Notes: a model not told the origin generated them from the letters alone. DNA of 30,455 bases from Desulfosoma sp. (GCA_037481875.1 JBBFKY010000016.1:1-30455), one strand, 5' to 3'. Numbered from the stretch's first letter, positions 10,109 through 28,082 are shown. Translations and numbers: made by a program.

Positions 10109-12490
10109 TCAAAGTTTTGTGTTCGATATGTGACAAAGAACCCTCGGTTGACCGGATACCTGCAGACAAAGAATCAGTGCCGGAAGAAAAAGGAGATCCC
10201 CAGCAAGCGCACTGAGCATGATCATGACGCTTAGAAAGCCGAAATGGATCGTGGGAACAAAATGACTGAGCACCGAAACCCCGAAGCCGATCAAAAGAAT
10301 CAGGGTGGACGAGGTCATAGCCTGTCCTTTGGTCAAGATACCAAACGACAAGGATTGTGACGGGGTTAAACCTGAACTTCGGTTCTCCACATAGACACCG
10401 ATGAAATGGATGGTGTTGTCCACAACCATGCCGATGGCTACGGCGGCAATGATCGCTGTGGCCGTATTGAGGGGGATGTCTAGAAGCCCCATGAGGCCGA
10501 AATTAAGAGCCAAAGGGAACAGGTTGGGAATGAGACTAAGAAGCCCCAACTTCCAGGACCTCAAGGCTATGATCATAATGGGCCAGATCACAAGGATCGC
10601 CAAGGCTAAGCTTTGAGTCTGACCGCTGACCAAGGCCTCTGTGGTGTTCACTCCATGGACGGCCCGACCGCTCAGCCGAACGGTCACTCCTTCCGGAGCC
10701 TGGGATTCGGCAAATTCCCTCATACGTTGGAGGATTTCAGCCTGAGCGCTTGAACGGTGTTCGGAAAGACGAAAGGTCACCCGGGCATGGCTGTAAGAGT
10801 CGTTGACGTAGGCTTTGAGGTCTTTGGGATCGTAAAGCAGGAGGTACTGAGCGATGAGATCACGTTTTTCAGGAAGGCGATAAAAATCGGGATGCTCTTG
10901 ATGAAAAGCTTTGTTCATATCTTTTAAGAAATCCACCAAAGAAAGAGACGTGTCGACACCGTCCAAAGCTTTTCCTCGTGCCTGAAGAGCTTCCAAGTAG
11001 CGCAATAGACCGGGATCCTTGAAAGCATCTGTTTTGTGGGCGTTGACCGACACATCAAAGGAACCGACGCCCGCCAGATTCTGCTCAACAAAGGTGAAGG
11101 ACCGTCGCAAAGGGTCTGAAGGTTTAAAATAGTCAAGCAGATTGGTTTCTACCCGAATTTTTTGAGCCAGAAAGGCACCGGCGAGCATAAGGAACACACC
11201 TCCGGTGACAAGGGTCTTGGGGTGGTTGAGAACCAGTCGACGCGTCGCTTCAAGAATCCACATCATGGTCCTTTTTTCCCGGTCCTTTATGTAAAGGTTT
11301 TCCGGCGGAAAAAGCAGGATCAAAGGGGGAAGGAGCACAAAGGCGAAGAAGAACTCGAAAACCATCCCCAGAGACGCGGTCCACGCGAAATCACGAATGG
11401 GAGGAATGGGGCTGACAGCCAGGGACAGAAACCCCACAAAGGTGGTCAGTGTCGTGAGAAAAGACGGGCGGATGACCCGTGCAAGCACAGAGTTCAGGGC
11501 TCGGCGCCGATCGTTTCCTGCAGAGTGCAGAACGTTTATCTCCAGGTGGCTAAAGATATGAACCGTGTCGGAAAGGGAAAGGGCCATCACAAGGGGAGGG
11601 ACGATGACCGTGACATTGTGCAAGGTGATTCCCGCCATGGGAAAGAAACCCATGGTAGCCGTCAGGCAAGCGGAAATGTTCAAAAGGGCCAAGAGGGTAA
11701 GCTGAAATCTTCTGAAGATCCAATGAATCGTAAGACCGATAAGAAGGTATGTGATGGGAATGAAACGAAAAAGGTCGTCCTTCATGTACTGACTCAAACT
11801 GACGTTCATAACAGTCCAGCCGGCCAGATGAAATGAGGTCCCGTCGCTTCGGTACGGTTCAAGAATCCTTTCGGTTGCAGAAAGCAGGCGTTTTCGATGA
11901 TCGGGATCTTCAGGACGGTCATCCGGAAAGACGACGATGGCGGTAGTGGTTGCGTCTTGGGATAGGATCTGGCGCACATAGAGAGGGTTGGACAGGGCGC
12001 GGGAACGCAGTTCTTGAAGTGCCTCCTGGGATTCCGGAATTTCTTCAAGGAAAGGGTGGACTTCAAAAAAACCTTCGCCGCCTCGAGTCTCGTTCACGTT
12101 GGCAAGGCTCAAGACCTCGCGCACCCCGGGCAGGTTTTCCAGCTTTTCCGTGACCTCCTTGATAAGCTGCAGGTTTTCTTTGGAAAAAAGGTCAGGTTTT
12201 TGAAACGCGATCACAAAAAATTCGTCGTTTCCAAAGACTTTTTTGAGCTCTTCGTAGAAGAGCGTGTCCGGATGATCTTCCAAGGTAAAGTAATCGACGT
12301 TGTTGACGGTTTGCACAAACGGTGCGAAAGCGCCAAAGCCGAAGGCGACGAGAAGGCCGAGTCCCAGGCACAGTCGGGATCGACGCGTGACAAAGTCAGG
12401 AAGCTTATCCAAACATCCCATGATGCGCGGCATGGAACCTGAAAATCCTTTCCTTCGCGGCCGTCGGCCTGGCCGGCTAAGTGCGTTCAT
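10109..12490 (-). CDS. MMPL/RND-superfamily transporter
   Basis: A 793-residue membrane protein with the two-fold RND layout: a first span (LCLGLGLLVAFGFGAFAPF), a large periplasmic loop (~60-230), a bundle of five spans, a further span (~430-450), a second loop, and five final spans. Diagnostic motifs are VMALSLSDTVHIFSHLE in the first half and GMVVDNTIHFIGVY in the second, the MMPL proton-relay regions. Family members move hydrophobic compounds (lipids, hopanoids, siderophores) from the inner membrane using proton flow. It lies between an outer-membrane barrel gene (37 bp upstream) and the radical SAM gene. The start is uncertain: ATG at 12490 or at 12433, the latter giving a more normal N-terminus. 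The cargo is not shown by sequence. Confidence 0.88.
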   Translation of the reverse strand: MNALSRPGRRPRRKGFSGSMPRIMGCLDKLPDFVTRRSRLCLGLGLLVAFGFGAFAPFVQTVNNVDYFTLEDHPDTLFYEELKKVFGNDEFFVIAFQKPDLFSKENLQLIKEVTEKLENLPGVREVLSLANVNETRGGEGFFEVHPFLEEIPESQEALQELRSRALSNPLYVRQILSQDATTTAIVVFPDDRPEDPDHRKRLLSATERILEPYRSDGTSFHLAGWTVMNVSLSQYMKDDLFRFIPITYLLIGLTIHWIFRRFQLTLLALLNISACLTATMGFFPMAGITLHNVTVIVPPLVMALSLSDTVHIFSHLEINVLHSAGNDRRRALNSVLARVIRPSFLTTLTTFVGFLSLAVSPIPPIRDFAWTASLGMVFEFFFAFVLLPPLILLFPPENLYIKDREKRTMMWILEATRRLVLNHPKTLVTGGVFLMLAGAFLAQKIRVETNLLDYFKPSDPLRRSFTFVEQNLAGVGSFDVSVNAHKTDAFKDPGLLRYLEALQARGKALDGVDTSLSLVDFLKDMNKAFHQEHPDFYRLPEKRDLIAQYLLLYDPKDLKAYVNDSYSHARVTFRLSEHRSSAQAEILQRMREFAESQAPEGVTVRLSGRAVHGVNTTEALVSGQTQSLALAILVIWPIMIIALRSWKLGLLSLIPNLFPLALNFGLMGLLDIPLNTATAIIAAVAIGMVVDNTIHFIGVYVENRSSGLTPSQSLSFGILTKGQAMTSSTLILLIGFGVSVLSHFVPTIHFGFLSVMIMLSALAGDLLFLPALILCLQVSGQPRVLCHISNTKL

Positions 12491-12527
12491 GGCAAAGCAC
12501 TCGAGGGCGGGCCGCGTTGAGGTAACG

Positions 12528-14564
12528 CTAAAAATCGTATCGGAGGGTCACGTAAGCTTGGTCGTTATGGCTGTACGTCCCGAGAAAGGTATCGGAAGGA
12601 CCGGCGAAAAGGTTTAATCCGGCCGAGACGGCAAGGGGGGCGAAACGGCGGTAAGTGAGTGAAGGATTCCAGGTGCTTCCGCCGTCGGTGAGCATAATCA
12701 TTCCACGTAAGCGTGCTTCCAGGTCACCTCGAAGGAAATCCTTTCGAATTTCTCCATTCAGGGACACGTTATGCCGTTTGAAATAAAGAACGGAGTCGTC
12801 ATAGTCCAAAAGCACCTGATGGCCAAGCTGGAGGTTGGTGTACCAATCATGAGGCCATGTGCGGTCGATTCCCGCCACGGAAAAAAGAATCCGCTGAGTC
12901 ACGGAAGTGAGATCGGATCTGAGGAAAACAGCATGGGAAGACAAGGCTGTTTCTCCGCGGAATCCGAAGGGCCCGAGCACGGTTTCCCATTCGAAGCCGA
13001 AGGTATGCGTCCTCTGGTAATCCACGGTCACATTCCCAGGGACCAACGTCCCCTGGAATGTCGCTTTGATTATTTCGTCGGGATCGAAGGACCCGTTGCT
13101 GCGAATGCCCTTGACCGGAAAGCTCGTGATAAAAGGCATGGGATTCCATGCGTAAAGGTAGCTTGCGGCCAGATCCCAGCCGGAAAGAGTGATTCCGGTG
13201 CGTAAGCCCCACTGTGTATTTCGAAACGTATGGGACGGTTCGTTTTCGTCGATTCCCACCGATGCCACGGCTTTTTGAAGCGGTGCCGGCAGCGGAGCCT
13301 TTTTGAGAACTTCCCGTGTGTGGCGAAAGACGGCCCAGTCGGTTCCGAAAAAGTCGATATCCGCCGGTTCAAAAAACGGAATGGCGACAACTTCGAAAGA
13401 TAGAGGCTCACGAAGGAAACGCACACGGGCCATCCAATTGGGGATTTTTCTTTCTTCCAAAGTTGGGACGAGGAACTGCCTGAGGTCCTGCGGGTTCACG
13501 TTGTCCACGGGGCTTAGCTGGTCGGTTTTTCCCCATCGTATGATTTGCTTTCCTAAGCGAAGTTCCCAAGGCCCCTTGGTTCCATGGAAATAGGTCTCGT
13601 AAAGCTTAAATTCATGATCGTTCCAATCCCTATGAGGGCCGAACCAAAGGGTGTCCGATTCCCCCGAGACAAGAACATGGCTGTTTTGCAGAGGTGTTTC
13701 CAAGGGAAGCTTTGATTCCAGCCGAACACGGTTTCGAAAGGTTTGAGTGTGTTCAAAGGAGTCATCCTTTTTGAGGTCCAGGCCACCCGTAACTTCAAGG
13801 AAGCCTCGAAAACGTAACCTTTCAAGGGCATTTTTCGGGGCCTGTTCGGGTGCGGGTTCGTCTGTGGAAACGTGAGACGCGTTTTCGACCGAGTTGACAA
13901 ATGAGGCAGTTTGCGTTGTCGGGACCGTTTGCCGGGTTTCCAAGGAAGATTCACCGGTGGCAAAAGACACTTGCGTATTCTTGTTCGGGCCATGATCGAA
14001 AACGGGTGATGGATTGCCGGGCGGCGAAGAGCAAGAAAGGATGCTTGAGGATTTGGGGACGGGATACGGCTTTGCCTCGTTTTCTTCGAGAGGGGATTCA
14101 AAGACTACATGGATCGCAGAGGACTCCTTTTCCACTCGGTATTGAAGCGGTGTGCCTTTTTTCAGGAAAAAAGTGTAGTGTAAGTGATCCGGGTGACGAG
14201 AATAGGTGATTTTTTCGATGCGACGATCCAGAGAAACCGGAACGGTTCCATCGGTGAGCCCGGGCGATTCTCTCGAAAAGTAAAGATCTACCGTAAAACG
14301 CCGAGGGGCTTCCAAAAAAGATGTTCGAACCAGCGACGCAGTCTCCGCCGATCGAATTTCGAACCGGGTCTGGTGCATGGAGACATGAAGCGCATGTTGG
14401 ACGGAGCCTTTGTCCTGAGCGGCAATGCTCATGGAGGCCATGAGGATGAGAAAACTCGCAGCCATGACCACACTGGGCACCAGGAGGGACATCGAAGACT
14501 TAAGCCGTCTCGAAAGGTGAAACGGGACGTCCGCGGCGCCTTTCACCGGATTCTCCTTTACCAT
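12528..14564 (-). CDS. Outer-membrane beta-barrel protein with N-terminal AMIN domain (DUF1302-like)
   Basis: A 678-residue protein. A signal peptide lies at ~20-48 (SMSLLVPSVVMAASF then AAQ). Residues ~50-150 resemble an AMIN domain (RFTVDLYF, RIEKITYSRHPDHLHYTFFL, AIHVVFES), found in secretins and cell-wall amidases for envelope localisation. After a Ser/Pro-rich linker the remaining ~450 residues are beta-barrel-like, with the DUF1302-type signature LRLGKQIIRWGKTDQLSPVD and N-P-x-D, and a terminal aromatic strand (YVTLRYDF) as recognised by the Bam complex. The 7-bp overlap with the LolA-like gene and the downstream MMPL gene suggest it is the outer-membrane partner. A GTG at 14546, preceded by AAGGAG, is an alternative start. 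A transport role is inferred. Confidence 0.75.
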   Translation of the reverse strand: MVKENPVKGAADVPFHLSRRLKSSMSLLVPSVVMAASFLILMASMSIAAQDKGSVQHALHVSMHQTRFEIRSAETASLVRTSFLEAPRRFTVDLYFSRESPGLTDGTVPVSLDRRIEKITYSRHPDHLHYTFFLKKGTPLQYRVEKESSAIHVVFESPLEENEAKPYPVPKSSSILSCSSPPGNPSPVFDHGPNKNTQVSFATGESSLETRQTVPTTQTASFVNSVENASHVSTDEPAPEQAPKNALERLRFRGFLEVTGGLDLKKDDSFEHTQTFRNRVRLESKLPLETPLQNSHVLVSGESDTLWFGPHRDWNDHEFKLYETYFHGTKGPWELRLGKQIIRWGKTDQLSPVDNVNPQDLRQFLVPTLEERKIPNWMARVRFLREPLSFEVVAIPFFEPADIDFFGTDWAVFRHTREVLKKAPLPAPLQKAVASVGIDENEPSHTFRNTQWGLRTGITLSGWDLAASYLYAWNPMPFITSFPVKGIRSNGSFDPDEIIKATFQGTLVPGNVTVDYQRTHTFGFEWETVLGPFGFRGETALSSHAVFLRSDLTSVTQRILFSVAGIDRTWPHDWYTNLQLGHQVLLDYDDSVLYFKRHNVSLNGEIRKDFLRGDLEARLRGMIMLTDGGSTWNPSLTYRRFAPLAVSAGLNLFAGPSDTFLGTYSHNDQAYVTLRYDF

Positions 14565-15379
14565 GCTTCAAGAGCCCGGACTGTAAAGGAATTGTCGTCA
14601 AGCCCGGTATTGTAGTTGATGCTCAGGGTTTTCAGAATGGTTCGATGGCCGTCTTTAAGGTTTTCCATGACGACCTCCATTTCCGTCCAAATCCCTTGCA
14701 CCTGCTTGAGATTTCGAACTGTGTAGGTCTTAATGTGCTCTCCCTTCTTGTCCACATACTGGATCCGCATGGGTACCCAAATTTCCTTGGCGGCCCAGAC
14801 TCGCACCATGCCGTACTGGGATGGTGGAGTTTCCAGAGGAGTGGATTCCAGGATCCAGCAGGGAACATCGCCCACGGTTTCTTCACCGATCACCCGATGT
14901 TGGGAAGCCTCCACAGCCCGACGCTCCAGGTCTTCATAGCTGAAGTCCGAATTGACGAAACTTTGAGATTTTTGAGCCGTCGCGATGCGTCGGCTTCTCT
15001 TCAGTGCCGGTAGATAAAGGAACTGTTCGGTATCGCCGGGTTTCGCTTCGAGAACGAGAAAGCCTGTACCTTCAATATCCGCAGGTGAAAGAAATCGAAT
15101 CAGAGACTTTCGTGCCGAACCATCGGTTTTGACGGAGACTCGAAGTCGTCGCACCCTTTCGGAGCCGCCGGCACTCAGAAGAACCATTTCCGCTTCCGTG
15201 ACGGAATCTCGACCTACGTCGCGATCGAAAATACGTTGCGCGATATCCTTGCCATCAGGCATTTGCGCCCCACAAGGGCAAGGCGCCAAAAGAACATAAA
15301 TGACGAGAAACCATAGGATGAAGGCGGCACAGCAATAAGGCTCTTCAGCGTTTTGTCTTTGTCGAAAAGGAATCGTCAT
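14558..15379 (-). CDS. Outer membrane lipoprotein-sorting (LolA-like) protein
   Basis: A 273-residue exported protein: signal segment AAFILWFLVIYVLLAPCPCG ending near GAQ, then a LolA/LolB-like half-barrel. Typical pieces are LLSAGGSERVRRLRVSVKTD, SLIRFLSPADIEGTGFLVLE, FLYLPALKRSRRIA, FSYEDLERR and WVPMRIQYVDKKGEHIKTYT. The DLER and 'P-A-L-K-R-x-R-R-I' features are common in the family of outer membrane lipoprotein-sorting proteins encoded next to MMPL transporters. They probably bind a lipid in the periplasm. ATG at 15379 has AAAGGG at the right distance; the frame extends to TTG at 15388. It is the first gene of the export module, 293 bp after the ThiF-nitroreductase gene. Confidence 0.85.
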   Translation of the reverse strand: MTIPFRQRQNAEEPYCCAAFILWFLVIYVLLAPCPCGAQMPDGKDIAQRIFDRDVGRDSVTEAEMVLLSAGGSERVRRLRVSVKTDGSARKSLIRFLSPADIEGTGFLVLEAKPGDTEQFLYLPALKRSRRIATAQKSQSFVNSDFSYEDLERRAVEASQHRVIGEETVGDVPCWILESTPLETPPSQYGMVRVWAAKEIWVPMRIQYVDKKGEHIKTYTVRNLKQVQGIWTEMEVVMENLKDGHRTILKTLSINYNTGLDDNSFTVRALEAW

Positions 15380-15672
15380 GGTTGTCAACCCTTTCGCTGG
15401 AAAGCCAAAAACTTGTCCATGAACTCACAATGCCAAGGTTTTCATGTCGTTTCAAAGACGGGCGAGCGCCGTCTCGTTCTTAGGAACCTGAATGTCTATT
15501 TTTTCTTGGGGCGCGGGTCTTTGGCCCGCACGTTTTACGGAAGGGACGCCTGCGCTCTCAGGGTCATTCCACTCCCGAACAACCTTCTAGGCCGCATAAG
15601 GTTAAGGGTTATTTTCCTTGGGGTGTTCAAATCAAGGAACCATGTTCTCACCAACTTCGGTAAAACCACCGG
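15380..15672. other. Spacer with GC-rich repeat pieces
   Basis: 293 bases without a gene. An AGACGG/CCGTCT stem lies at about 15456-15475, and a block around 15511-15565 contains GCGGG-TCTTTGG-CCCGC followed by GGGACGCCTGCGCTCTCAGG, a copy of the dispersed repeat family also seen at 2387 and 22407. It probably holds the promoter of the LolA-like gene, but no clear box pair is visible. Confidence 0.45.
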
Positions 15673-17853
15673 TCATGTGCCGCCGTGGTCCGTTTCACGA
15701 AAAACCGGTGGGCGCCTGCGAGTGGGCTCTTCAATGGGGGCGGCCCAACCCAGCCGGAAAAGGAGCACATGAGCCCGGTTAAAAAAATCCACATGGGGAA
15801 AGAGCGCCTCATAGCCGGTAAAAACCCGTTCTAAAAGCCTTTGATGCCTGGGTTGGAACGGATGCATCCCTTGGCGTTGGTAACGGGTCCAAAAAAGCGG
15901 GACGGCGGCCATGGGCTGAAGGGATAGGTTCCATGCCGTGGCCGTGAGCCAAAGGCGTTGCAGGGCACGCCCCCCCTGAAAGTAATGAGTGGGAGTCGTT
16001 CCGGAAACGGTCAGCAACGCGCAGGCTCCTGCATGGCGCACGCTTCGAGCCGTATGAGCGGCCACAACCCGGGATATGCCAAGCCGGTTCAAAACCTTCA
16101 TGACCCCCCAAGGACGGGTGAGCCTGAGGAAAACTTCACCGGCACGTCCGGCTTCCAGATTTTTGAGGGGGAAACCGTCTCGTGTGGTGAGCACTTCTTC
16201 CTTACGGTAACGAATCATGCGATGAAGATGTTCATGAAGACGTCGATCTTCCAAGCGGATACGATCCGCCTGAAAGACGACTCGTGCCAATTTGTTTAAG
16301 CTCTTTCGATCCAAGACCCAATGGAGGCAAGAGTCCGAAAAATCCGCAATCGAGGCTTCCAGAACTTCTCGAATGACCGGCGAAAGAGGCGAGCGCTGGT
16401 AAAGTTTTCGATTGGTGCATCGTTTCCAAAGAACCTCGCTCAGTGGGTCTTCGTCAAGGGAAGCCCGTTCAAAGCGAAGTTGGGCGACGTGAAAAGGATC
16501 CTCGGGATCAGGAAAAGGTTCCACATGGGTGGATAGGCCAAGGCCGGTGGCGGCAATACGAATATTTTCGGCGACAGCCCCAGCGGAAATCACCGAAGCG
16601 ATTTGATCGACGTTGAAAAAGGATTGATCTTTTTTGGGGTCGATAAAAATTCCAATCTTTTCATTGGAAACCGAAAAAAACCACGGCTGAGCGTTGTCAC
16701 CCGACGGTGCCTGAACACCGGCTTCCAAAAGATAGTGAAGCACTGGTTCACTCAGAATAGGGCTTGAGGAGGGGGATGGGAAAGGTTTTTCCGGTCGAGG
16801 CCGACAATCGGGTCGAGGTGTTGTGATGAGGCGGGGAGGACAAAAGAGCCGTCGAAGAAAAGATCGAGCCATCAGAGCACCCGTCGGCCCTTTGGGCTGT
16901 GGTTCTTGGAAGCCATTGGGACCGTGCTTTTTGTGCAAGTGCCCCTGAGCAGGCGGCGCATCAGCTGAAGCATCTTCAAACCCGTCTTCCAAGAGAACGT
17001 GTTTGACGAAAGCTGTTTTGATGCGCTGCGAAGGATTGCGGTTGCCTCCGTGAAGCCGGCCTTGTCGCAATGTCCATGTGTAGGGGTCGATCTGAAGGTA
17101 GGAGGGAACAGGCCGGATGGGACCTCGCCCCAAAAGGATCTTAAGGGCTTCCGTGGCCGCAGCACCGGCGCATAGCATGCAGGCTGAAGCAATGGAAGGC
17201 CCCGTCTTTTCTCGAAAGCTCACTCGGCTGGTGTCCATATAGGCCAAATGGGTCGGGCGAGGCGCCAATCCCATGGCAAACCGAAGCAATTGGTCTTCTT
17301 CGGAAAGACCTTCGTGAATATGAAAATATTCGTCAAAGTTCATGCCTTCATGAGGGGAAAAAACCAAAACGGCGGCGCTGAATCCCAAAGGACCTGCAGT
17401 CACCACATGAAGGCCGAGTTCTAAAGCCCTGTTGAAAAGCAACCGACGCATGGTGAAGTTAAAAAAATCCAACCCGTCCAAGACCAAATGAGCTCCCGAG
17501 AGAAAGGAGTCAAGATTGGATTCGGTGAGTCCTTCGGGAAAGGTTTGAAGCGTCAGGTATGGGTTGATGGCCAGTGCCTGCTCCACCATGACCTCCAGCT
17601 TCGAACGTCCGAAGGTGGCGACCGTGGCCCCTGCCTGGCGGTTGATATTGACCGGTTCGAAAACATCGTAGTCCGCCAGATGAAAACGTCCCACCCCCAT
17701 TCGAGTCAATGTCAGCAGATGCAATCCACCGACACCTCCCAGCCCGGCGATGGCCACACACGACCGATGGAGCAGCGCCTGTTCCGTAGGGGTCACCAAG
17801 CCCAGGTTACGGCGGAAAGCTTGGGTGAAGTACTCGCACGAAACGTCTGGCAT
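15673..17853 (-). CDS. ThiF (E1-like) adenylyltransferase fused to a nitroreductase-like domain
   Basis: About 726 residues from ATG 17853. Domain 1 (~10-265) is ThiF/MoeB/E1-like: nucleotide loop GLGGVG (37-42), D61 and D63 in ADYDVFEPVNINRQ with the catalytic-type Arg, and ASACMLCAG near the end. Domain 2 (~360-680) is nitroreductase-like: QAPSGDNAQPWFFSV (FMN region), RRLHEHLHRMIRYRKE, and GRALQRLWLTATAWNLSLQP. A Pro-rich linker joins them. E1-like enzymes adenylate a carboxylate; nitroreductases do flavin redox chemistry. A similar pairing exists in actinobacterial Rv1355c/MoeY-type proteins (from memory). The frame is open to 18054, but that would overlap the acyltransferase by 100 bp and has no domain, so the later start is preferred. 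The substrate is unknown; the N-acyl amino acid made next door is an attractive candidate (inference). Confidence 0.8.
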   Translation of the reverse strand: MPDVSCEYFTQAFRRNLGLVTPTEQALLHRSCVAIAGLGGVGGLHLLTLTRMGVGRFHLADYDVFEPVNINRQAGATVATFGRSKLEVMVEQALAINPYLTLQTFPEGLTESNLDSFLSGAHLVLDGLDFFNFTMRRLLFNRALELGLHVVTAGPLGFSAAVLVFSPHEGMNFDEYFHIHEGLSEEDQLLRFAMGLAPRPTHLAYMDTSRVSFREKTGPSIASACMLCAGAAATEALKILLGRGPIRPVPSYLQIDPYTWTLRQGRLHGGNRNPSQRIKTAFVKHVLLEDGFEDASADAPPAQGHLHKKHGPNGFQEPQPKGPTGALMARSFLRRLFCPPRLITTPRPDCRPRPEKPFPSPSSSPILSEPVLHYLLEAGVQAPSGDNAQPWFFSVSNEKIGIFIDPKKDQSFFNVDQIASVISAGAVAENIRIAATGLGLSTHVEPFPDPEDPFHVAQLRFERASLDEDPLSEVLWKRCTNRKLYQRSPLSPVIREVLEASIADFSDSCLHWVLDRKSLNKLARVVFQADRIRLEDRRLHEHLHRMIRYRKEEVLTTRDGFPLKNLEAGRAGEVFLRLTRPWGVMKVLNRLGISRVVAAHTARSVRHAGACALLTVSGTTPTHYFQGGRALQRLWLTATAWNLSLQPMAAVPLFWTRYQRQGMHPFQPRHQRLLERVFTGYEALFPHVDFFNRAHVLLFRLGWAAPIEEPTRRRPPVFRETDHGGT

Positions 17854-17954
17854 GGCTTCACTCACAAGGTTATGGGGCTCCTCGAATGACCGTAAGTACT
17901 TGCTGATCCTAGAGCATGAGGATCGGCGTGACAAGAGGGAAACGCTTGAGAGGG

Positions 17955-18821
17955 TCAGTGAAGGCGCAGGGAGTTGCAGGAACAGAGGTAAGCGACGTTT
18001 TTTCTTTGCGTGGCATTGAGACCCTCGAGGGCGGAAGGTTCGTGAGCGAGGCACTGAAGGATTTGGTTTCCGGAAAGAGGGCGTGGTGGAGGGTCCAGGT
18101 GGCGGCGTACGTGAGTCCAGCCCGTGGCGGCTTCCCAGGTTTCGGTGAGGAAATGATATACGGAGCGCTTCAAGGCCAGGTTTTGAAGAAGCTTTTGAAT
18201 ACGCTCAGGGAAGGTTACAAGATCGGCCCGAAGAGCTACCGCCGGCGCGTTCACGAAAGGATAGGGGCGCACAGGACCCAGATCTTCAAAAAGAAAAATG
18301 GAGCGATAAAAGTCCGCATGGCGAGGGTTCACCATAATGCAAAAATCTGTGACGCGCTTTTTCAAAGCATAGCCGTAAGCGGCTCGAACAAGAAGCATGA
18401 AAAGACTTTGCAGGCAATAACTACGCCGCACAGCCAAAGCGCTCAGTTCCGCAAGACGTCGGCCTTGACGGCGCAGGGTCTTCAGTTCTTCACCATAGAC
18501 TTTGTCCATGGGAAGTCCGTAAAGATCCGTATCCAGAACAATGGTGAGTGTACCGACGGTTGTGGCGCCGTCTTGAAGAAGAAGGGTCAGGGAAGTGGGA
18601 AGTAAATGGTGCAGACGATAGATCATGCCGGAAGAGGTGGGCCGAGGAATGTAGCCCTGCCGAAGGTATTCATCGTGGACGAGTGAAAAGGCTTCCTTAC
18701 GTTCCTGCAAGGTTTCGGCCCACTTGAGGGTCAACCGATCCTGCCACGCCGGATCCAATAAAAGGTAACGTCCCCGCCTGATATAAGCCAGGTGACGTTG
18801 CTCTAAGGCTTTTTCGGCCAC
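17955..18821 (-). CDS. PEP-CTERM/exosortase-associated acyltransferase (N-acyl amino acid synthase, FeeM-like), copy 2
   Basis: A 288-residue protein, paralogous to the gene upstream at 18966-19868. Shared core: F(S/R)LVHDxYLRxGY, then LPTSLTLLLQDGATTVGTLT, LYGLPMDKVY, RRLAELSALAV, MLLVRAAYGYA, CIMVNPRHADFYRSIFLFED and VNAPAVALRADL. This GNAT/autoinducer-synthase-like fold with an ELSALA segment is that of long-chain N-acyl amino acid synthases and the exosortase-associated acyltransferase family, which join an ACP-bound fatty acid to an amino acid. GTG start at 18821 follows GAGGAGGG. It sits 101 bp before the ThiF-nitroreductase start in the same direction. Family membership is confident; the amino acid used is unknown. 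Confidence 0.85.
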   Translation of the reverse strand: MAEKALEQRHLAYIRRGRYLLLDPAWQDRLTLKWAETLQERKEAFSLVHDEYLRQGYIPRPTSSGMIYRLHHLLPTSLTLLLQDGATTVGTLTIVLDTDLYGLPMDKVYGEELKTLRRQGRRLAELSALAVRRSYCLQSLFMLLVRAAYGYALKKRVTDFCIMVNPRHADFYRSIFLFEDLGPVRPYPFVNAPAVALRADLVTFPERIQKLLQNLALKRSVYHFLTETWEAATGWTHVRRHLDPPPRPLSGNQILQCLAHEPSALEGLNATQRKNVAYLCSCNSLRLH

Positions 18822-18965
18822 GTGCCCTCCTCGATCCGACGGCTTTCGGCCTTGTCCTCTCCGCGCGCCCCTTTTTCCATGCCAAGGCCGGTTCCAGACA
18901 ATCGCGCCACGCTTAAAACCTTGCAGATTGGTTTGTCAAGCAAATATTCGCGTGAGCGGTACTTT

Positions 18966-19868
18966 TTATTGAAGTTGAGGATAATGGGTGGTGAAAAAAT
19001 CTTTTTGAGAAGGATTGAGGTTTTCCCAAAGGGATGGGAAAAGGTGAAAAAAATGGCGAACAATTTCGGCTTTACGACCGTTCATGAAAGGAACCATCGT
19101 CCTTTGGGGCCCTTCGGCCGATGAAGTTTCCGCAGGAACGGGTGTTTCTGCGGGATTCCAAGGAAGTAGACCTGTCATGCGATGGAAATAGAGATACAGA
19201 TTGGCATCCAGGTCGTTGGAATCATAAACCTGTTTGAGGCGGTCGGCGATGTGATGCATGTCCACCCGCAGGGCGACGGCCGGGGCGTCCACGCGAGGAT
19301 AATGGCGTTCCGGCCCGAAGTCTTCAAAAAGAAGAATGTTCTTATAAAAGCTTACATGCTTGGGGTTGACGGCGATACAGAGATCATCCACACCGCGGTA
19401 GCGGGAATACTGGTACATGACCTGCGCTAAAAGCATGAAAAGATTGCGCCACCGTAACTTGGGCGGAGTCACCAAAGCGGAAAGTTCCACGACTCGTCGG
19501 CCCTTTTCGCGAAGAGTATCCAGTTCCGGTTTGTAGATAATGTCCATGGGAAGTCCAAAAGCTTCCGTGTCAAAGATTTCCGTCAGGGTGGAAATGACGG
19601 TGAGGTAGGATTTGGCGATGAAAATGACCGTTTCTGGAAGAAGCGAATGGGCGCTGAAAAAGAGTCCGTTGGGCTGGGGTTCCTTGAGGTAGCCCATGCG
19701 TAGATAAGTGTCGTGCACCAGGCGGAAGGATTGTTCGTATTCGTCGATGGTTTCGGCGATCTTGATGGCCGGACGGTCGATGTCGTCCAGTTGCAGGTCG
19801 AGAAGGTTGGAACGTCTGATACGGACCGTGCGGCGTCGTTCCAAGAGGTGGGGCGTGGGGTCGGACAT
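18966..19868 (-). CDS. PEP-CTERM/exosortase-associated acyltransferase (N-acyl amino acid synthase, FeeM-like), copy 1
   Basis: A 300-residue protein with the same core as copy 2: FRLVHDTYLRMGYLKEPQ, HSLLPETVIFIAKSYLTVIS, AFGLPMDIIY, RRVVELSALVTPP, CIAVNPKHVSFYKNILLFED and VDAPAVALRVDM. The N-terminal ~40 and C-terminal ~70 residues differ from copy 2, so substrate or partner may differ. Long-chain N-acyl amino acid synthases have been reported as linked to PEP-CTERM/exosortase loci in Gram-negative bacteria, which fits the setting. ATG 19868 is chosen because AAGGAG lies eight bases upstream; the open frame continues to 19928 through repeat DNA. It is separated from the TPR gene by a 109-bp spacer with two hairpins. 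Confidence 0.87.
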   Translation of the reverse strand: MSDPTPHLLERRRTVRIRRSNLLDLQLDDIDRPAIKIAETIDEYEQSFRLVHDTYLRMGYLKEPQPNGLFFSAHSLLPETVIFIAKSYLTVISTLTEIFDTEAFGLPMDIIYKPELDTLREKGRRVVELSALVTPPKLRWRNLFMLLAQVMYQYSRYRGVDDLCIAVNPKHVSFYKNILLFEDFGPERHYPRVDAPAVALRVDMHHIADRLKQVYDSNDLDANLYLYFHRMTGLLPWNPAETPVPAETSSAEGPQRTMVPFMNGRKAEIVRHFFHLFPSLWENLNPSQKDFFTTHYPQLQ

Positions 19869-19976: not shown

Positions 19977-20002
19977 GCTAAGAATCCTTTTGGGTTCTTA
20001 GC
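19977..20002 (-). terminator. Hairpin overlapping the stop codon of the TPR lipoprotein gene
   Basis: GCTAAGAA (20002-19995 on the minus strand) pairs with TTCTTAGC (19984-19977), with inner CC/GG pairing across an AAAA loop. The TAG stop (19980-19978) is inside the distal arm. No T tract follows, so termination is uncertain; it may protect the upstream mRNA end. Confidence 0.4.
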
Positions 20003-22458
20003 TTGTCCATCAAAGCCTGCGCCTTTTCTTTTTCCGGGAAAGGCCCTTCTTTTTCCAGTGTCTTTTGTAATTCCTCCAGGGCTCGGTTCGTGGCACCCTT
20101 TTCCGCCAAGGCCACCGCCAGATGGTATCGAATGGAAGGATTGTCCGGCGATTTGGCCAAAGCGGCTTCAAACTGAGCGATGGCGCTTTCGTAAGCTTTC
20201 TTGTGCACAAAAATCCATCCCAGCGTATCCGCCACGGCCGGATCTTCCGGCATTTTTTCCTTGGCCATTTGGGCTAGGGTGAGAGCCCGATCGATGTTGC
20301 CGCCCGTTTCCACCAAAAGCCAGGCCAGGTTGTTGGCCGCCGGAGCGAAGTCAGGTTTTTGTTCCAGAATCTTTTCGTAATATCGTGCGGCGGATTCGTT
20401 TCTTCCCTTCACCTGGTGAAGGATGCCCAGGTTCATGAGAGCCGGAAGATAATCCGGCTGTCGTTCCAAAAGCATTTCAAGACGTTTTTCGGCCTCATCC
20501 GTGCGGCCAAGTAGATAGTAGACTTGTCCAAGCACCATGTACGGAGCGGGCCATTCGGGAGCTCTTTCAACAGCGGCCGAAAACGCCTTTTCCGCTCCCT
20601 GAAGGTCCTTTTTCACAAGCCTCACCTGACCTTCCAGTACAAGGAGAGAGGCTTCTAACAATTTATCTTCTTGAACCTTCGATAGCCGCTCCTCAATCAG
20701 GGAAAGGGCCTTATCGGGTTGTTTTTCCAAAACATAGGTCATCACGAGGCCTCGAAGAGCTTCCGTGGATCGAGGCGCCCGTTCCAACGCCGCTTCATAA
20801 TGGGTTCGAGCTTCTTGATAACGTTTGTCTGCGAATTGAACACTTGCAACGGCAAGATAACCTTCAGGGCGGTCGGGAAAGAGTTTCTGGACTTCCATAA
20901 AAACCTTTTCCGCCTCATCCGTGAGTTTCTGAGCGGCCAAAGCCCGTCCCAGAAGAAGCCGAGCCCGCATCTCCCGCGGTTGCTTTTGCACCACATCCCG
21001 AGCCAAGGCTTCCGCCTCGCTTGCTTTGTCTTCTTTCAGTAAGAGCTCCGCTTTCACCATCTTGGCCAGGAAATGGTCCGGATTGAGTTTCAAGGCCTCT
21101 TCCAGAGAGTCTTTTCCTTGCTGTTGTCGGCCCAGATCAAAACGGGCCAAAGCCCTGTAGTAGTGGGCGTCGGCCAAGTTGGGATAGTCTATCACCAGTT
21201 TATCCAAAACGGTCAAACCCTGTTGGGTTTGCTTTTCTTTCAAAAGCATGCGGGCTTCCAGAAGTCGAGCCAGAGGATCTCCTTTGGCCTTGGATTCAAT
21301 GGTTTTCAGGATGGCTCGAGCTTTTTCAAAGGCGTTCCTCTCATAGAGGATCTGGGCCTGGGCCCGTAGAGGTCGAAGATCTTCCGGATGCATTTGCGAG
21401 GCCTTTCGAAGAAGATCCAACGCCTTGTCGGATTCTCCTTTGGCCAGGTACAAGGAACTCAGCTCCAGTTGAGGTTCAATGCTTTCGGGCATGGCCGAAA
21501 GGGCGTCCAGAAGCGTTTTTTCGGCTTCTTCCACTTCCCCGCGGCTCAAATAAAACCGAGCCAGAGCTATGCGAAACTGAGGACTTTCGGGGGCTTTACC
21601 CACAGCCTTTTGAAGCTCTTCTTCGGCTTTATCGAATTCCCGTCGTGCGATGTAAAATTGAGCCATGGAAAGATTGTGCAGGGGTTCGTTGGGGAATTTT
21701 TCCTGGATGGACTTCAGGATGATTTCCGCTTTTGTTGAATCCCTCAGGGCGGCATAGAGCTGAGCCAGCGCATAAAGAGGCTGTGGGGAATCGGGCAGGG
21801 CTTCGGCGGCTTCCTGCAGCGTTTTTTCCCCTTCAGAAAGACGTCCCATGGAAAGGAAACATTGAGCTTTGAGCAGTCGCGCATCGAGACGCTTGGCATC
21901 CAGGGCCAAGGCTCGTTCCAGATCCTGCAGGGCTTCCTCAAAACGCTTGTCCCGAGCCAGGGAATGGCTACGAAGGATCAGAGCATCCACGTTGTCCGGT
22001 TGGCTTTCGAGAGCCTTTTCGGCGGCTTCCCGCGCCCGTTGGATCTGGTTTCCGGCAAGATATAAGGACGCCAGGCGGACTTGAGCCTTCACATGTCCCG
22101 GGTCAAGAGATGCCGCCTGACTGAAGGCTCCAAAGGCGTTACGAAGATCGTTTTGTTTGAGATAAACCTCCCCCAAGGCGAAATAAGCGTCTGGGGATTT
22201 GGGATTGGCCTTGAGAGCGTTTTTGTATTCCAATGCCGCTTCCGCCAGTTTTCCTTCCTCGCTGTAGGAGTTTCCTCGTGCCATGTGTTTGGCGAATTTT
22301 TTTTCCGGGCTTTGGCACCCGAAAGCAAAAACCAAAAGCAGGCTTAAGACGAAAAACCTTCCCAGAAGGCTTTTCGATAAGGAGGCAAACCCATGGTTTT
22401 CCCGAGAGCGCGGACCTTCGGCCCGCTCGAGATGCGGGCGGGACTCCCACGCTTCCAA
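19978..22458 (-). CDS. Large TPR lipoprotein of the PEP-CTERM system (PrsT-like)
   Basis: A lipoprotein signal (GRFFVLSLLLVFAFGC, lipobox FGC, Cys codon 22317-22315) is followed by ~780 residues of back-to-back tetratricopeptide repeats, from AALEYKNALKANPKSPDAYF to AIAQFEAALAKSPDNPSIRY. A TPR lipoprotein of this size is a hallmark neighbour of PEP-CTERM/exopolysaccharide loci (PrsT-type) and probably scaffolds the export machinery at the outer membrane. The start is a problem: no ATG or GTG with a ribosome site precedes the signal in frame. TTG at 22458 is the nearest candidate. The frame stays open to an ATG at 23067, but that part (22459-23067) is translated repeat DNA with abnormal Arg/Pro/Gly composition. 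An ATG at 22395 exists in another frame. Confidence 0.8.
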   Translation of the reverse strand: MEAWESRPHLERAEGPRSRENHGFASLSKSLLGRFFVLSLLLVFAFGCQSPEKKFAKHMARGNSYSEEGKLAEAALEYKNALKANPKSPDAYFALGEVYLKQNDLRNAFGAFSQAASLDPGHVKAQVRLASLYLAGNQIQRAREAAEKALESQPDNVDALILRSHSLARDKRFEEALQDLERALALDAKRLDARLLKAQCFLSMGRLSEGEKTLQEAAEALPDSPQPLYALAQLYAALRDSTKAEIILKSIQEKFPNEPLHNLSMAQFYIARREFDKAEEELQKAVGKAPESPQFRIALARFYLSRGEVEEAEKTLLDALSAMPESIEPQLELSSLYLAKGESDKALDLLRKASQMHPEDLRPLRAQAQILYERNAFEKARAILKTIESKAKGDPLARLLEARMLLKEKQTQQGLTVLDKLVIDYPNLADAHYYRALARFDLGRQQQGKDSLEEALKLNPDHFLAKMVKAELLLKEDKASEAEALARDVVQKQPREMRARLLLGRALAAQKLTDEAEKVFMEVQKLFPDRPEGYLAVASVQFADKRYQEARTHYEAALERAPRSTEALRGLVMTYVLEKQPDKALSLIEERLSKVQEDKLLEASLLVLEGQVRLVKKDLQGAEKAFSAAVERAPEWPAPYMVLGQVYYLLGRTDEAEKRLEMLLERQPDYLPALMNLGILHQVKGRNESAARYYEKILEQKPDFAPAANNLAWLLVETGGNIDRALTLAQMAKEKMPEDPAVADTLGWIFVHKKAYESAIAQFEAALAKSPDNPSIRYHLAVALAEKGATNRALEELQKTLEKEGPFPEKEKAQALMDKLRTQKDS

Positions 22459-22960
22459 GAGAAAAGCCCTATTCTGGCCGCTGTCGGGGTGGACCGATGT
22501 GTCCGCCCCTTTTCGCGGTGAGCCCATGCGCCACTCCATCGTACAGGCCGATCGCTGTCCCCAAGCCTCGTGGGGACGCAGCGACGCGTCCTTCCACACC
22601 ACGGCCGGACCGCTATGCGCGCCCATTGTCGTCCGAACAAATCGCCCTGTCCGGCCCTTGTAAGGGCGGACCCATGTGTCCGCCCTTCTTCCCGCTAACC
22701 CCATGCATAGGCCCCATGATTTTTGGGCATCCTTTGATTCAACCGGACACTCTGGTGCCCGTCCGTCCCCACACGTCGATACGGGACCGCGTCTTCTGGT
22801 CGCCGGCTGACACGGAGGCTGCCCAAGACCAACAAACCCTGTCGCATCCACCCCCGCTTGGTAAGGGCGAGGCGCCGCCTCACCCCTACTTCCCGGCGGT
22901 GTGGGGCTCGGGCCCGCTTTCTGTGCAGGCGGGACGCCCGCCCTTTCATGGAAAAGTTCG
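22395..22960. repeat. Mosaic of GC-rich palindromic repeats upstream of the TPR lipoprotein gene
   Basis: The stretch is tiled with short near-palindromes: GAGCGCGGACCTTCGGCCCG (from ~22407), GGGGTGGAC-CGATGT-GTCCGCCCC (22486-22509, one G-T pair), AAGGGCGGAC-CCATGT-GTCCGCCCTT (22662-22687, perfect 10-bp stem), AAGGGCGAGGCGCCGCCTCA (from ~22863) and GCGGGACGCCCGCC (around 22929). All three reading frames are open for long stretches on both strands, which is a composition effect and not evidence of a gene. It fills the spacer between the PilZ gene and the TPR gene (22459-23095). Confidence 0.7.
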
Positions 22961-23095
22961 TTCTCGGACAAGCTCCTGGATTCTTTTCTTTCTAGCATGA
23001 GAGGACAATGTCGAGGATGGTCAGGCATGGAATGCGTCTCCTTTGAAGAGCTCGGGACACGGAACAAAGGGGATTAGCTTTGTGACTCTTGGGGT

Positions 23096-24721: not shown

Positions 24722-24950
24722 CATAGGCAAAAAAGGATACGCTTCGAATCAAAGAAACCTCCGCATAAAAGCTAAACTATTGTCTTAAAAACGGAAAATG
24801 GAATGTCTACAAATCTAGCACGAACCGTGCATACCAAGAGGCCGTCGCGCTCGTTTGTTTAGGAAAGCTGAGCGCATGCGGCGGCAACGCTCACAACGCG
24901 GTTTTCGGCCCACGAGACACCATGAAAACGAAAGCCGCGATGGAGGGAAA

Positions 24951-26336
24951 ATGGCGGCAACGACCATCATCAGCGCCGAGACAATGGACTACGGGGCCTT
25001 TCTGCAGAGTTTGGTGGACCAGGTGGGCGTTCCCAGTCGATGGATACCGGTAGAGGGTTTGACACGGGATTTTCTGGAAAAGTTTCGGCCGGCCGTGGTG
25101 GTTGTGGAAACGCGACATGCCATCCCTTTGGAACTCAGCCGTTGTGCGGCTTCCTGTGGGTTTCCGCTGGCGGTGGTGAGCGAAAGAGCCGAAGTGCTTT
25201 CCAAGCTTTCCCGAAACAACGGGCAGAGCGTCTGGTGTTTTTCCAAGCCCTTGGAACCGACCGCTTTTGTGAGGTGCCTTGGGGATTTTCTGAAAAAGGA
25301 AGGATTGTTGTCTCGCGATGAAACCTTATGGGAGGGACCTTATCTCATTGGCGTCGGTGAGGCCATACGAACCGTCCGTACACGGCTTGCTCGAATAGCC
25401 GCCACCGACCTAGGGGTGCTGATTCGTGGAGAAACAGGGACGGGCAAAGGGGTTGTGGCCATGGCCATTCACAACAATTCGTCACGACGCCACGGCCCTT
25501 TCGTGCAGGTTAACTGTTCCAGCATACCCCACACCTTGCTGGAAAGTGAACTTTTCGGGTACCGCAAGGGTGCCTTTACGGGAGCCTATCGAGACAAACC
25601 GGGAAAATTCGATCTGGCAAAGGGCGGAAGTCTTTTTCTTGATGAAATATCGGACATGAGCCCTTCCATGCAAGCCAAACTTTTGCAGGTGCTTCAGGAC
25701 TTGGAATACGCTCCGCTGGGGCATGCGGAAAATGTTCGAGCCGATGTGCGCGTCTTTTCCGCAACCAACGCCCCTCTGGAAGACATGGTGGCTCGAGGTC
25801 GATTCCGCCAGGATCTCTATTTTCGACTCAATGTGGTTCAAATCGAGCTTCCCCCCTTGCGGGAACGCCTTGAAGACGTGGGACCCCTGACCCAGCATTT
25901 TCTCAACAAGTATGCGGCTCTTTTTGGATGTCCTCTGCCCGGATTGTCCCCGGAACTTCGGCGTCTCATGGAGCTCTACGACTGGCCGGGAAATGTTCGG
26001 GAGCTGGAAAATTGCATCAAGGGACTCGTGGCGGTGGGCAATGAAGAGGAATTGCTGAAGACTTTGCGTCAGAAAGTCCATGATAATCGGCGGCGGCCCC
26101 ACCCGGGTGAGAATCCGAGTGCGGTGGAGCTGCTGGAAGATATTCGGCAGAGTTCTTTGAAAGAGGTGGTTCAAAGGGTGGCTGATGAGGTGGAACGGCG
26201 CATGATCGATGAAGCTCTAAAAGAGACCCGAGGAAACAAGCGCAAGGCTGCGGAACTTCTTGGCGTGAGCCCCCGGACGCTGTACAAGAAAATGCGCATT
26301 TTGGACTCGATTGGTTCGAAGAACTTTCGAACATAA
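24951..26336 (+). CDS. Sigma-54-dependent transcriptional activator with degenerate receiver
   Basis: A 461-residue enhancer-binding protein. Residues 1-118 are receiver-like (FRPAVVVVETRH, then VWCFSKPLEPTAFVRCL with the KP motif), but the phospho-acceptor Asp position appears to be Glu53. The AAA+ domain (~130-360) has Walker A GETGTGKG (160-167), the sigma-54 contact loop GAFTGA (207-212), Walker B GSLFLDE (226-232) and DWPGNVRELEN. Residues ~416-450 are a Fis-type HTH (NKRKAAELLGVSPRTLYKKM). It activates RNA polymerase-sigma-54 from remote palindromic sites, for which 24590-24721 and 7149-7164 are candidates. The ATG 24951 start has GGAGGG just upstream; the frame extends to 24855 without support. 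The stop overlaps the chain-length gene by one base. Confidence 0.9.
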   Translation: MAATTIISAETMDYGAFLQSLVDQVGVPSRWIPVEGLTRDFLEKFRPAVVVVETRHAIPLELSRCAASCGFPLAVVSERAEVLSKLSRNNGQSVWCFSKPLEPTAFVRCLGDFLKKEGLLSRDETLWEGPYLIGVGEAIRTVRTRLARIAATDLGVLIRGETGTGKGVVAMAIHNNSSRRHGPFVQVNCSSIPHTLLESELFGYRKGAFTGAYRDKPGKFDLAKGGSLFLDEISDMSPSMQAKLLQVLQDLEYAPLGHAENVRADVRVFSATNAPLEDMVARGRFRQDLYFRLNVVQIELPPLRERLEDVGPLTQHFLNKYAALFGCPLPGLSPELRRLMELYDWPGNVRELENCIKGLVAVGNEEELLKTLRQKVHDNRRRPHPGENPSAVELLEDIRQSSLKEVVQRVADEVERRMIDEALKETRGNKRKAAELLGVSPRTLYKKMRILDSIGSKNFRT

Positions 26337-27934
26337 TGCAACCGCAGAGGACGACGGCCATGATTCAATTGCCAAAGATCAACGTGGAACCTTATGTGGA
26401 TGCCTTGATTCGGCGCAAGTGGTGGATTGTGGTGCCCTTGGTGCTGAGTGTCATCGGAGGGGTCCTGTATGCCATGACCACGCCGAAAATCTACGAAGCC
26501 AGCACGCTCATTCTCGTCGAAAAACAGCGTATCCCCACCAGCTATGTGCAGCCTACGGTGACGGAAAGTGTGGAAAGCCGTTTGAGGACCATCTCCCAGG
26601 AGGTGAACAGCCGCACGAACCTGGAGCGTATTATCAAAGATTTTAACCTTTACCCCGATTCCCGGATTCGGGAACGCGGTTTCAAAGATGTCTTACTCGA
26701 TCACGTGAGAAAACTCTTGGGACGTCCCCTACCCAAGGAAGAAGAAGCCCCGAAAGTCCCCATGATGGACTTGGTGGAAAATATGAGGAAAAAAATCGGC
26801 GTCAATGTCAAGGGGCAAGGCAATGCCTTTGAAATCACTTTTCAGTGGGACGACCCGCAGACGGCGGCGGCTGTGGCCAACGCCATCGCCAGCCAGTTCA
26901 TAGAGCAGAACCTGAAGGTTCGAGAAGAAATGGCCATGGGGACGACAGCCTTTTTGGATGTGGAAACCCAAAGGTTGCGAAAGGAATTGGAAGCTCGGGA
27001 ACAGGCGCTGGAAAAATTCAAGAAAGAAAACATGGGCATGCTTCCGGACCAGCTTCAAAGCAATCTGAATATTCTCGGCCAACTCAAAGAAGAACTTACG
27101 GATCTGGAAAAACGTGTGGCTGTGGAAAAGCAACAGGCCATGATGCTTCAGTCGCAGAGCCAGGCCATGGCCCAAAGCGGCCCGGACCTGTCGTCGCTCA
27201 TGGTTGAAGACGAATCGGGGTCCTTTGTCGGGGGGGAAATCGATCAACTGCGCCAAAAACTTGAAGACCTTCTGACCCGCTACACGGAACGGCACCCCGA
27301 TGTGGTGGCTTTGAAAAGGAAAATCGAAAAGTTGGAAAAAGAAGCCGCTGAAGCTCTAGAAGCTTCCCGGCGTTCAGGAAAAAAGGGTTTACCGAACCTT
27401 GGAGGTTTGTCCGGGCAGGACATGTTCGCCATACAAACTCAACAGATCAACGCCAGGATTGCCGATTACGAAAAACAGATCGGCGTCTTGAAGGAACAGA
27501 TCGCTCTCTACAAAGACCGCGTGGAAAAAACACCCCAAGTGGAATTGGAACTGACAAAACTTGTTCGCGACTACCAGACGGTGCAGGACCGTTATGCCCG
27601 GCTTTTGGCCAAGAAACTGGATGCCCAGATGGCCGAAGAGCTTGAACGTCGGCAAAAGGGAGAACAGTTTCGTGTGATCGATCCTGCAGTTGCACCGGAT
27701 CGCCCCATCAAACCCGATGTGCGAAAGGTCCTGGCCATAGCCTTGTTGGCCGGCTTGGGGCTTGGATGCGGCCTGGCCTATGTACGGGAAACCTTGGATC
27801 CTCGATTTTATTCTCAAGAAGAGGTGGAAGCCGTCACTCGATGCAAGGTGCTGGTGAGTATTCCTTTGATAAAGGAGCAAGCGGCCAAATCAGGCAAAGG
27901 ATTCAAGGTGTTCGGCAAGAAAAAGGCTGCGTGA
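26336..27934 (+). CDS. Polysaccharide chain-length determinant (Wzz/GNVR family, exosortase-system type)
   Basis: A 532-residue inner-membrane protein. The first span (WWIVVPLVLSVIGGVLYAM, ~30-48) is followed by the Wzz domain (KIYEASTLILVEKQRIPTSY), long coiled coils (~205-265 and ~305-345), a GNVR segment (DYQTVQDRYARLLAKKLDAQ, FRVIDPAVAPDRPIKPD) and a second span (VLAIALLAGLGLGCGLAYV, ~468-486) with a short cytoplasmic tail. Such proteins set polysaccharide chain length and partner a separate tyrosine kinase, here the next gene. The start may be ATG 26336 (overlapping the previous stop) or ATG 26360, which has AGAGGA upstream. Without a fused kinase it matches the Gram-negative exopolysaccharide arrangement in which the kinase is separate. 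Confidence 0.9.
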   Translation: MQPQRTTAMIQLPKINVEPYVDALIRRKWWIVVPLVLSVIGGVLYAMTTPKIYEASTLILVEKQRIPTSYVQPTVTESVESRLRTISQEVNSRTNLERIIKDFNLYPDSRIRERGFKDVLLDHVRKLLGRPLPKEEEAPKVPMMDLVENMRKKIGVNVKGQGNAFEITFQWDDPQTAAAVANAIASQFIEQNLKVREEMAMGTTAFLDVETQRLRKELEAREQALEKFKKENMGMLPDQLQSNLNILGQLKEELTDLEKRVAVEKQQAMMLQSQSQAMAQSGPDLSSLMVEDESGSFVGGEIDQLRQKLEDLLTRYTERHPDVVALKRKIEKLEKEAAEALEASRRSGKKGLPNLGGLSGQDMFAIQTQQINARIADYEKQIGVLKEQIALYKDRVEKTPQVELELTKLVRDYQTVQDRYARLLAKKLDAQMAEELERRQKGEQFRVIDPAVAPDRPIKPDVRKVLAIALLAGLGLGCGLAYVRETLDPRFYSQEEVEAVTRCKVLVSIPLIKEQAAKSGKGFKVFGKKKAA

Positions 27935-28082
27935 ATTTGGAATGTTTTTTATGTGGGTGCTGAAGGCGCCATGAAGCGCTGTGGTGAAAAAAATCTTCAA
28001 GGTGCCCTTTTCTTTGACCGATTGTCCCTATGGAACGGGACGATCGGAACCGGCATCGAACGTTTCAAGAACGGGTAAACGC

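Follow-up and report, generated by a model that had tools for sequence, protein, structure and literature searches.

What do two N-acyl amino acid synthase genes and a gene for a ThiF-nitroreductase fusion make together, and how is their product linked to protein sorting? The locus that raises this question lies in a 30,455-nucleotide stretch of Desulfosoma sp. DNA, which was analyzed at its full length and is called the window below. An original prediction had recognized the three genes as co-directional neighbors, and this assignment was borne out by matches to PF21926, 2G0B, PF00899 and PF00881 (Table 1). The genes for FeeM-1 (start ATG 19868, stop 18966), FeeM-2 (start GTG 18821, stop 17955) and the fusion protein are all intact and follow each other directly on the minus strand. 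FeeM-1 and FeeM-2 cover PF21926 over the whole domain, well above the cut-off of 27 bits, and both match the solved FeeM structure (2G0B).

Table 1. Features of the window with their positions, strands and supporting matches.
Feature	Position	Strand	Evidence
FeeM-1, N-acyl amino acid synthase	18966..19868	-	PF21926 164 bits; PRK14852 260 bits; 2G0B E 2e-11
FeeM-2, second N-acyl amino acid synthase, separate clade	17955..18821	-	PF21926 164 bits; 2G0B E 9e-15
ThiF-like cyclase with FMN nitroreductase-family (Acg-like) domain, TrzS/OxzB-type fusion	15673..17853	-	PF00899; PF00881; PRK07877; 1ZFN; 2YMV; motifs
LolA-like periplasmic protein, probable lipid carrier	14558..15388	-	PF17131 212 bits; putative export role
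DUF1302 protein, probable outer-membrane barrel	12528..14564	-	PF06980 51 bits
MMPL/HAE3 RND pump, probable inner-membrane lipid transporter	10109..12490	-	PF03176 99 bits; TIGR00921 HAE3 183 bits (below cut-off)
PrsT-type TPR protein, XrtA system, directly upstream of FeeM-1	19978..23067	-	TIGR02917 442 bits (cut-off 312)
XrtA exopolysaccharide genes	24855..30322	+	TIGR03007 286 bits; TIGR03018 205 bits; TIGR03013 471 bits
PepA-type PEP-CTERM protein, exosortase substrate	7548..8462	+	NF033554 104 bits (cut-off 80); PF07589

In the fusion protein, the ThiF domain (PF00899, 151 bits) is followed by a C-terminal nitroreductase domain (PF00881, 30 bits, cut-off 23.5). The two halves matched E. 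coli ThiF (1ZFN) and Acg (2YMV, E 1.5e-10) in phmmer searches. The Rv1355c-family model PRK07877 scored 268 bits, and the Acg/Rv3131 FMN family model 169 bits, below its cut-off of 199. Two NCBIfam models, PRK14851 (ThiF-nitroreductase) and PRK14852, are both named only "hypothetical protein" and matched as well, in all cases below the models' own cut-offs; the first part of PRK14852 (989 positions) matches both FeeM proteins, and its later parts match the fusion. The open reading frame of the fusion, as listed, starts at GTG 18054 and overlaps FeeM-2. Because ATG 17853 corresponds to the position at which the relatives start, we placed the start at this codon, which predicts a protein of about 726 residues. 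A structure prediction of the fusion, based on a two-sequence alignment, had a low mean pLDDT of 33 and backs no claim.

Residue conservation was compared in 13 ThiF-nitroreductase sequences, either fused or joined in order from neighboring genes. In the ThiF half, the GGVGG loop, an NxxRQ-type stretch, K85 and D129 are kept, with D129 aligned to the aspartate of the CTD stretch in E. coli ThiF. These adenylation residues of a ThiF-like cyclase are intact in the fusion. The 13 sequences also share an NR motif and the SxDNxQPW stretch of the flavin site. A single CxxC (fusion residues 225-228) lies in the ThiF domain and is invariant in the 13 relatives; MoeB-type enzymes usually have two CxxC motifs. 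The fusion further contains conserved arginines (R482, R531, R548) and a conserved glutamine (Q646) as candidate counterparts of R540 and Q651, flavin-site residues of TrzS studied by mutation (PMC12856293).

According to the original prediction, no pathway with this exact set had been described. This part has to be given up, since the acyl-oxazolone pathway is known (PMC10404671, PMC12856293) and Stieleria has the genes together with a PEP-CTERM gene (PMC7293339, PMC12479983). In OxzAB (P. rubra), TyzACB and TrzAS (mycobacteria, Rhodococcus), an aromatic amino acid is N-acylated, an ATP-dependent ThiF-like cyclase closes the oxazolone, and a flavin oxidase from the nitroreductase superfamily desaturates it in an O2-dependent step (PMC10404671, PMC12856293). 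OxzB of Pseudoalteromonas rubra is a ThiF-NTR fusion according to de Rond et al., as cited in PMC10404671. TrzS is a ThiF-oxidase fusion, in which ring closure precedes the flavin redox step (PMC12856293). The predicted chemistry, activation of the amino acid carboxylate followed by oxidation or reduction, thus has the TrzS order, and its second step narrows to oxidation in the characterized relatives. The enzyme types of the acyl-oxazolone pathway are represented in the window, namely FeeM/LuxI-fold N-acyltransferases, a ThiF-like cyclase and an Acg-like flavin oxidase fused to ThiF. With TrzS/OxzB-like domain content and order next to acyltransferase genes, the acyl-oxazolone pathway is therefore favored; profile models and domain order are what suggests membership in this group.

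TrzAS (Rv1356c-Rv1355c; M. tuberculosis, M. smegmatis, Rhodococcus; PMC12856293) resembles the window in that an acyltransferase gene adjoins a ThiF-flavin oxidase fusion of the same domain order, and in that the Rv1355c-family model recognizes the fusion. It differs by having one short-chain tryptophan acyltransferase and by its occurrence in aerobes, whereas the window, from an anaerobe, has two FeeM-type synthases and adds the XrtA genes and the LolA-like/DUF1302/MMPL set. OxzAB and TyzACB share N-acylation, ATP-dependent ring closure and flavin desaturation, and mmpL9 adjoins tyz in M. tuberculosis. However, TyzB and TyzC are separate proteins (PMC10404671), and we found no description of an exosortase or PEP-CTERM link for either system in the parts of the literature that were searched. 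Clusters of the same genes in Stieleria, Thalassotalea and Massilia produce dehydro-N-acyl tyrosines (PMC12479983). The stieleriacine cluster (PMC7293339, PMC12479983) has several NAS genes, ThiF, nitroreductase and transporter genes, and the S. maiorica paper places a PEP-CTERM gene in the cluster and exopolysaccharide genes nearby (PMC7293339). In contrast to the window, its ThiF and nitroreductase are unfused, methyltransferases are present, the product is open-ring, and the export genes are not identified as LolA-like/DUF1302. A link between N-acyl amino acid synthases and PEP-CTERM/exosortase systems goes back to Craig et al. 2011, as cited by later papers. The combination of acyltransferase, ThiF and oxidase with PEP-CTERM has thus been described already and is as such not new.

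What this work adds is the occurrence of the gene set across Thermodesulfobacteriota. In a sample of 395 genomes from the phylum, the ThiF enzyme (counted above 320 bits) was found in 22 genomes of 12 genera. FeeM was present in all 22 of these, but in only 22 of the 373 genomes without the ThiF enzyme (P 3e-24); by genus, the fractions were 12/12 and 17/234 (P 7e-13). An exosortase was present in 19/22 versus 139/373 genomes (P 6e-6), which supports the predicted exosortase link. The P values ignore kinship beyond the collapse to genus. The profile survey detected neither ThiF enzyme, FeeM, exosortase nor PepA in genome G022, from the same genus as the window, and at some loci (in G205, G252 and G294) ThiF lies apart from the other genes. 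Five loci (L064 2376-3062 and cluster c12 in G197, G367, G384 and G002) have a TIGR03694 exosortase-associated acyltransferase near ThiF, which apparently replaces the strong FeeM match there.

Nature has also joined the three enzymes in a single protein. DVUL_RS15680, encoded on plasmid pDVUL01 of Nitratidesulfovibrio vulgaris DP4, contains FeeM, ThiF and oxidase in one 989-residue chain and in the same order. Its gene is part of an XrtA cluster and is flanked by exopolysaccharide genes of the XrtA system and by PEP-CTERM genes. An ABC exporter is encoded about 8 kb away, and the exosortase about 27 kb away. A literature search on the plasmid exopolysaccharide genes of D. vulgaris returned nothing relevant. 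A search of plasmids identified Nitratidesulfovibrio and Bdellovibrio only. A single scan of genome contigs identified one locus, on a Desulfosoma MAG contig with the same genes in the same order and a fusion that is 75% identical. The gene row is not due to chance, as indicated by this second Desulfosoma copy and by the one-chain protein with the same domain order. The natural fusion and the presence of FeeM in all genomes with the ThiF enzyme also uphold the view that the enzymes act together; in the genomes sampled, the ThiF-nitroreductase enzyme did not occur without the acyltransferase, contrary to what would have refuted the original prediction. Taken as a whole, the original interpretation is partly supported.

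In a phylogenetic tree, FeeM-1 is the copy closest to the fused FeeM domain of N. vulgaris and groups with it at moderate support (83/87), and FeeM-2 forms a clade of its own. Four genomes, from two genera, retain both as a pair. G018 and G019 have this pair on one contig, next to XrtA exopolysaccharide genes, and the ThiF fusion on a different one; the two modules united in the window can thus also be separate.

We consider it fairly likely that these genes produce an acyl-oxazolone-type lipid, which would probably be exported and reach the surface beside the XrtA exopolysaccharide and PepA. FeeM-1 and FeeM-2 would acylate a probably aromatic amino acid with a fatty acyl group. The ThiF domain would adenylate the carboxylate with ATP, and the amide oxygen would close the oxazolone (azlactone) ring. 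Desaturation by the FMN domain would then give a 2,3-dehydro-amino-acid oxazolone, whose ring may remain closed or be hydrolyzed to yield a dehydro-N-acyl amino acid. The MMPL pump, the LolA-like carrier and the DUF1302 barrel would carry the lipid to the cell surface, where it would work alongside the XrtA exopolysaccharide and the PepA-type PEP-CTERM protein. Domains, conserved residues, fusions, co-occurrence and linkage are observed; from these, we infer the chemistry by way of characterized relatives, and export and surface role by way of the neighborhood only.

The same enzymes could release an open-ring dehydro-N-acyl amino acid of the stieleriacine or thalassotalic acid type, with the oxazolone as a mere transient. 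Oxazolones hydrolyze easily, and no oxazolone was observed from the bacteria with NAS, ThiF and nitroreductase genes that make dehydro-N-acyl tyrosines (PMC12479983). However, the enzymes known with this fused architecture, TrzS and OxzB, have oxazolones as their detected products, and we rate an open-ring product as unlikely, with the reservation that sequence by itself does not separate open from closed rings. A further objection to the acyl-oxazolone pathway comes from oxygen. Desulfosoma species are anaerobic sulfate reducers, and the characterized oxidases use O2. TrzS and TyzC need O2 for desaturation; when it is limited, the cyclized saturated form builds up. The flavin domain might thus use another acceptor, be active only during brief oxygen exposure or be inactive, and the product might be a saturated oxazolone or an N-acyl amino acid. 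Inactivity is argued against by the flavin-site motif APSGDNxQPW, which is kept along with the other motifs in all fused relatives, and we regard these alternatives, taken together, as quite unlikely.

A role of the ThiF domain outside lipid synthesis was considered as well. As in MoeB or ThiF, the domain could activate a sulfur carrier or ubiquitin-like protein, with the FeeM genes as unrelated neighbors. It belongs to the same superfamily, shares the adenylation residues and has one CxxC. No carrier-protein family was seen among the annotated neighbors, and the triple fusion with FeeM, the complete co-occurrence with FeeM and the fusion to an Acg-like oxidase all speak against such a role, which we find hardly credible. 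It was on account of the fusions and the association with FeeM that we rejected the MoeB-like role.

The export part of the acyl-oxazolone pathway was suggested by the genes directly 3' of the fusion. The LolA-like, DUF1302 and MMPL genes, which the original prediction had left aside, are consecutive there (10109-15388) and on the same strand. The LolA-like gene is the sole copy found in the Desulfosoma sp. genome. Of the 23 genomes examined, 22 had such a gene, mostly 1-3 copies of it, and at 13 of the 20 loci read it was at most 12 kb from ThiF; by chance, it would be expected within 15 kb of ThiF in about 0.4 genomes. DUF1302 was near ThiF at 13 of the 20 loci, and MMPL at 10. A LolCE-like ABC permease was found at 5 others, never together with MMPL. 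Because sister genome G023 combines the same FeeM pair and fusion with the ABC exporter version (and a glycosyltransferase), the pump type, HAE3/MMPL or LolCE-like ABC, looks interchangeable. Even in another phylum, a Bdellovibrio plasmid combines FeeM, ThiF, a LolA-like protein, an ABC pump and a similar glycosyltransferase. It is probable that an export set of LolA-like protein, DUF1302 protein and either pump travels with the synthesis genes, and its position suggests that it probably exports the lipid. Sets of HAE3, LolA-superfamily and DUF1302 proteins are known efflux cassettes (PMC6394551), and they also serve other hydrophobic cargo, a point against this reading. AmeABCD of Castellaniella has the same three protein types (PMC6394551), but is tied to monoterpene tolerance, its LolA-type protein is a DUF1329 protein, and it has an extra protein, AmeC.

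A macrolide/UGT-type glycosyltransferase (L022 15142-16611; L094 9506-10765) was noted close to ThiF at five loci and also occurs on the Bdellovibrio plasmid. It accompanies the ABC type of exporter in most cases, and the lipid may be glycosylated at these loci. In the window, the downstream run ends with a B12-binding radical SAM protein (8564-10078, minus strand) that resembles TIGR04072 (lipid biosynthesis), below cut-off. It has relatives of 54-56% identity near FeeM genes in G252 and G348 (L072 11974-13527; L088 6031-7512), and may further modify the lipid.

Parts of an XrtA locus were also found, namely exopolysaccharide genes, PrsT and EpsI on the other side of the FeeM genes, and the PEP-CTERM protein. 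The exopolysaccharide genes encode a sigma-54 regulator, a chain-length determinant, a tyrosine autokinase and a TIGR03013 glycosyltransferase, and run on past the window with an export protein, a TIGR03016 protein and EpsI. In the listed reading frame of PrsT, the first ~220 codons are probably not coding. A sigma-54 motif search returned 28 sites versus 29 expected, which is chance level. The sole exosortase found in this genome is at the end of contig C7 (172541-173296, L081). EpsI (33009-34046, L020) is near the end of C16, the window's contig, and the two contig ends may adjoin. In the sister genome, the exosortase is on the same contig as the FeeM genes, about 13 kb away.

One particular PEP-CTERM family, that of the floc protein PepA, is linked to the set by its position as well as by phylogenetic profile. 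In 23 genomes with the ThiF enzyme, 10 of 16 full-length PepA-like hits were at most 10 kb from FeeM, ThiF or oxidase genes versus 0.3 expected (P 8e-15), several of them less than 1 kb away. Across the 395 genomes, the PepA profile (E 1e-12 or better) identified 21 genomes, 14 with the ThiF enzyme (P 2e-15) and 19 with FeeM (P 2e-18). The association held within exosortase genomes (P 8e-10 for the ThiF enzyme, 9e-11 for FeeM) and by genus (P 3e-6 and 6e-9, respectively). PepA and PrsT have been linked to flocculation in Aquincola (PMC9850573). This family-level association of PepA was not found in the literature searched, and may have been reported earlier.

The acyl-oxazolone papers call the physiological role of these compounds a major unresolved question, and the effect of exosortase on PEP-CTERM proteins is also poorly known. 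With synthesis enzymes, a probable export set and one sorted protein in one cluster, the two questions can be addressed together. The lipid-export set and the exosortase-system protein suggest where such lipids go, and point to a possible role in strict anaerobes. O2-dependent chemistry is here placed in anaerobes, which allows the oxidase step to be questioned directly, and N. vulgaris, which encodes all three enzymes in one gene on a plasmid, offers a simple test system. As a long shot, the exported oxazolone might be a missing lipid partner of exosortase sorting, an electrophilic acyl donor that would attach to or anchor PepA-type proteins or their polysaccharide on the cell surface, with O2-dependent desaturation making anchoring or flocculation oxygen-responsive in anaerobes.

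A PilZ-domain protein (window 23096-24301, minus strand) precedes PrsT and has relatives in the corresponding position in G023, G018 and G019; control of the locus by c-di-GMP may therefore apply. The trzAS genes of M. tuberculosis also adjoin c-di-GMP genes.
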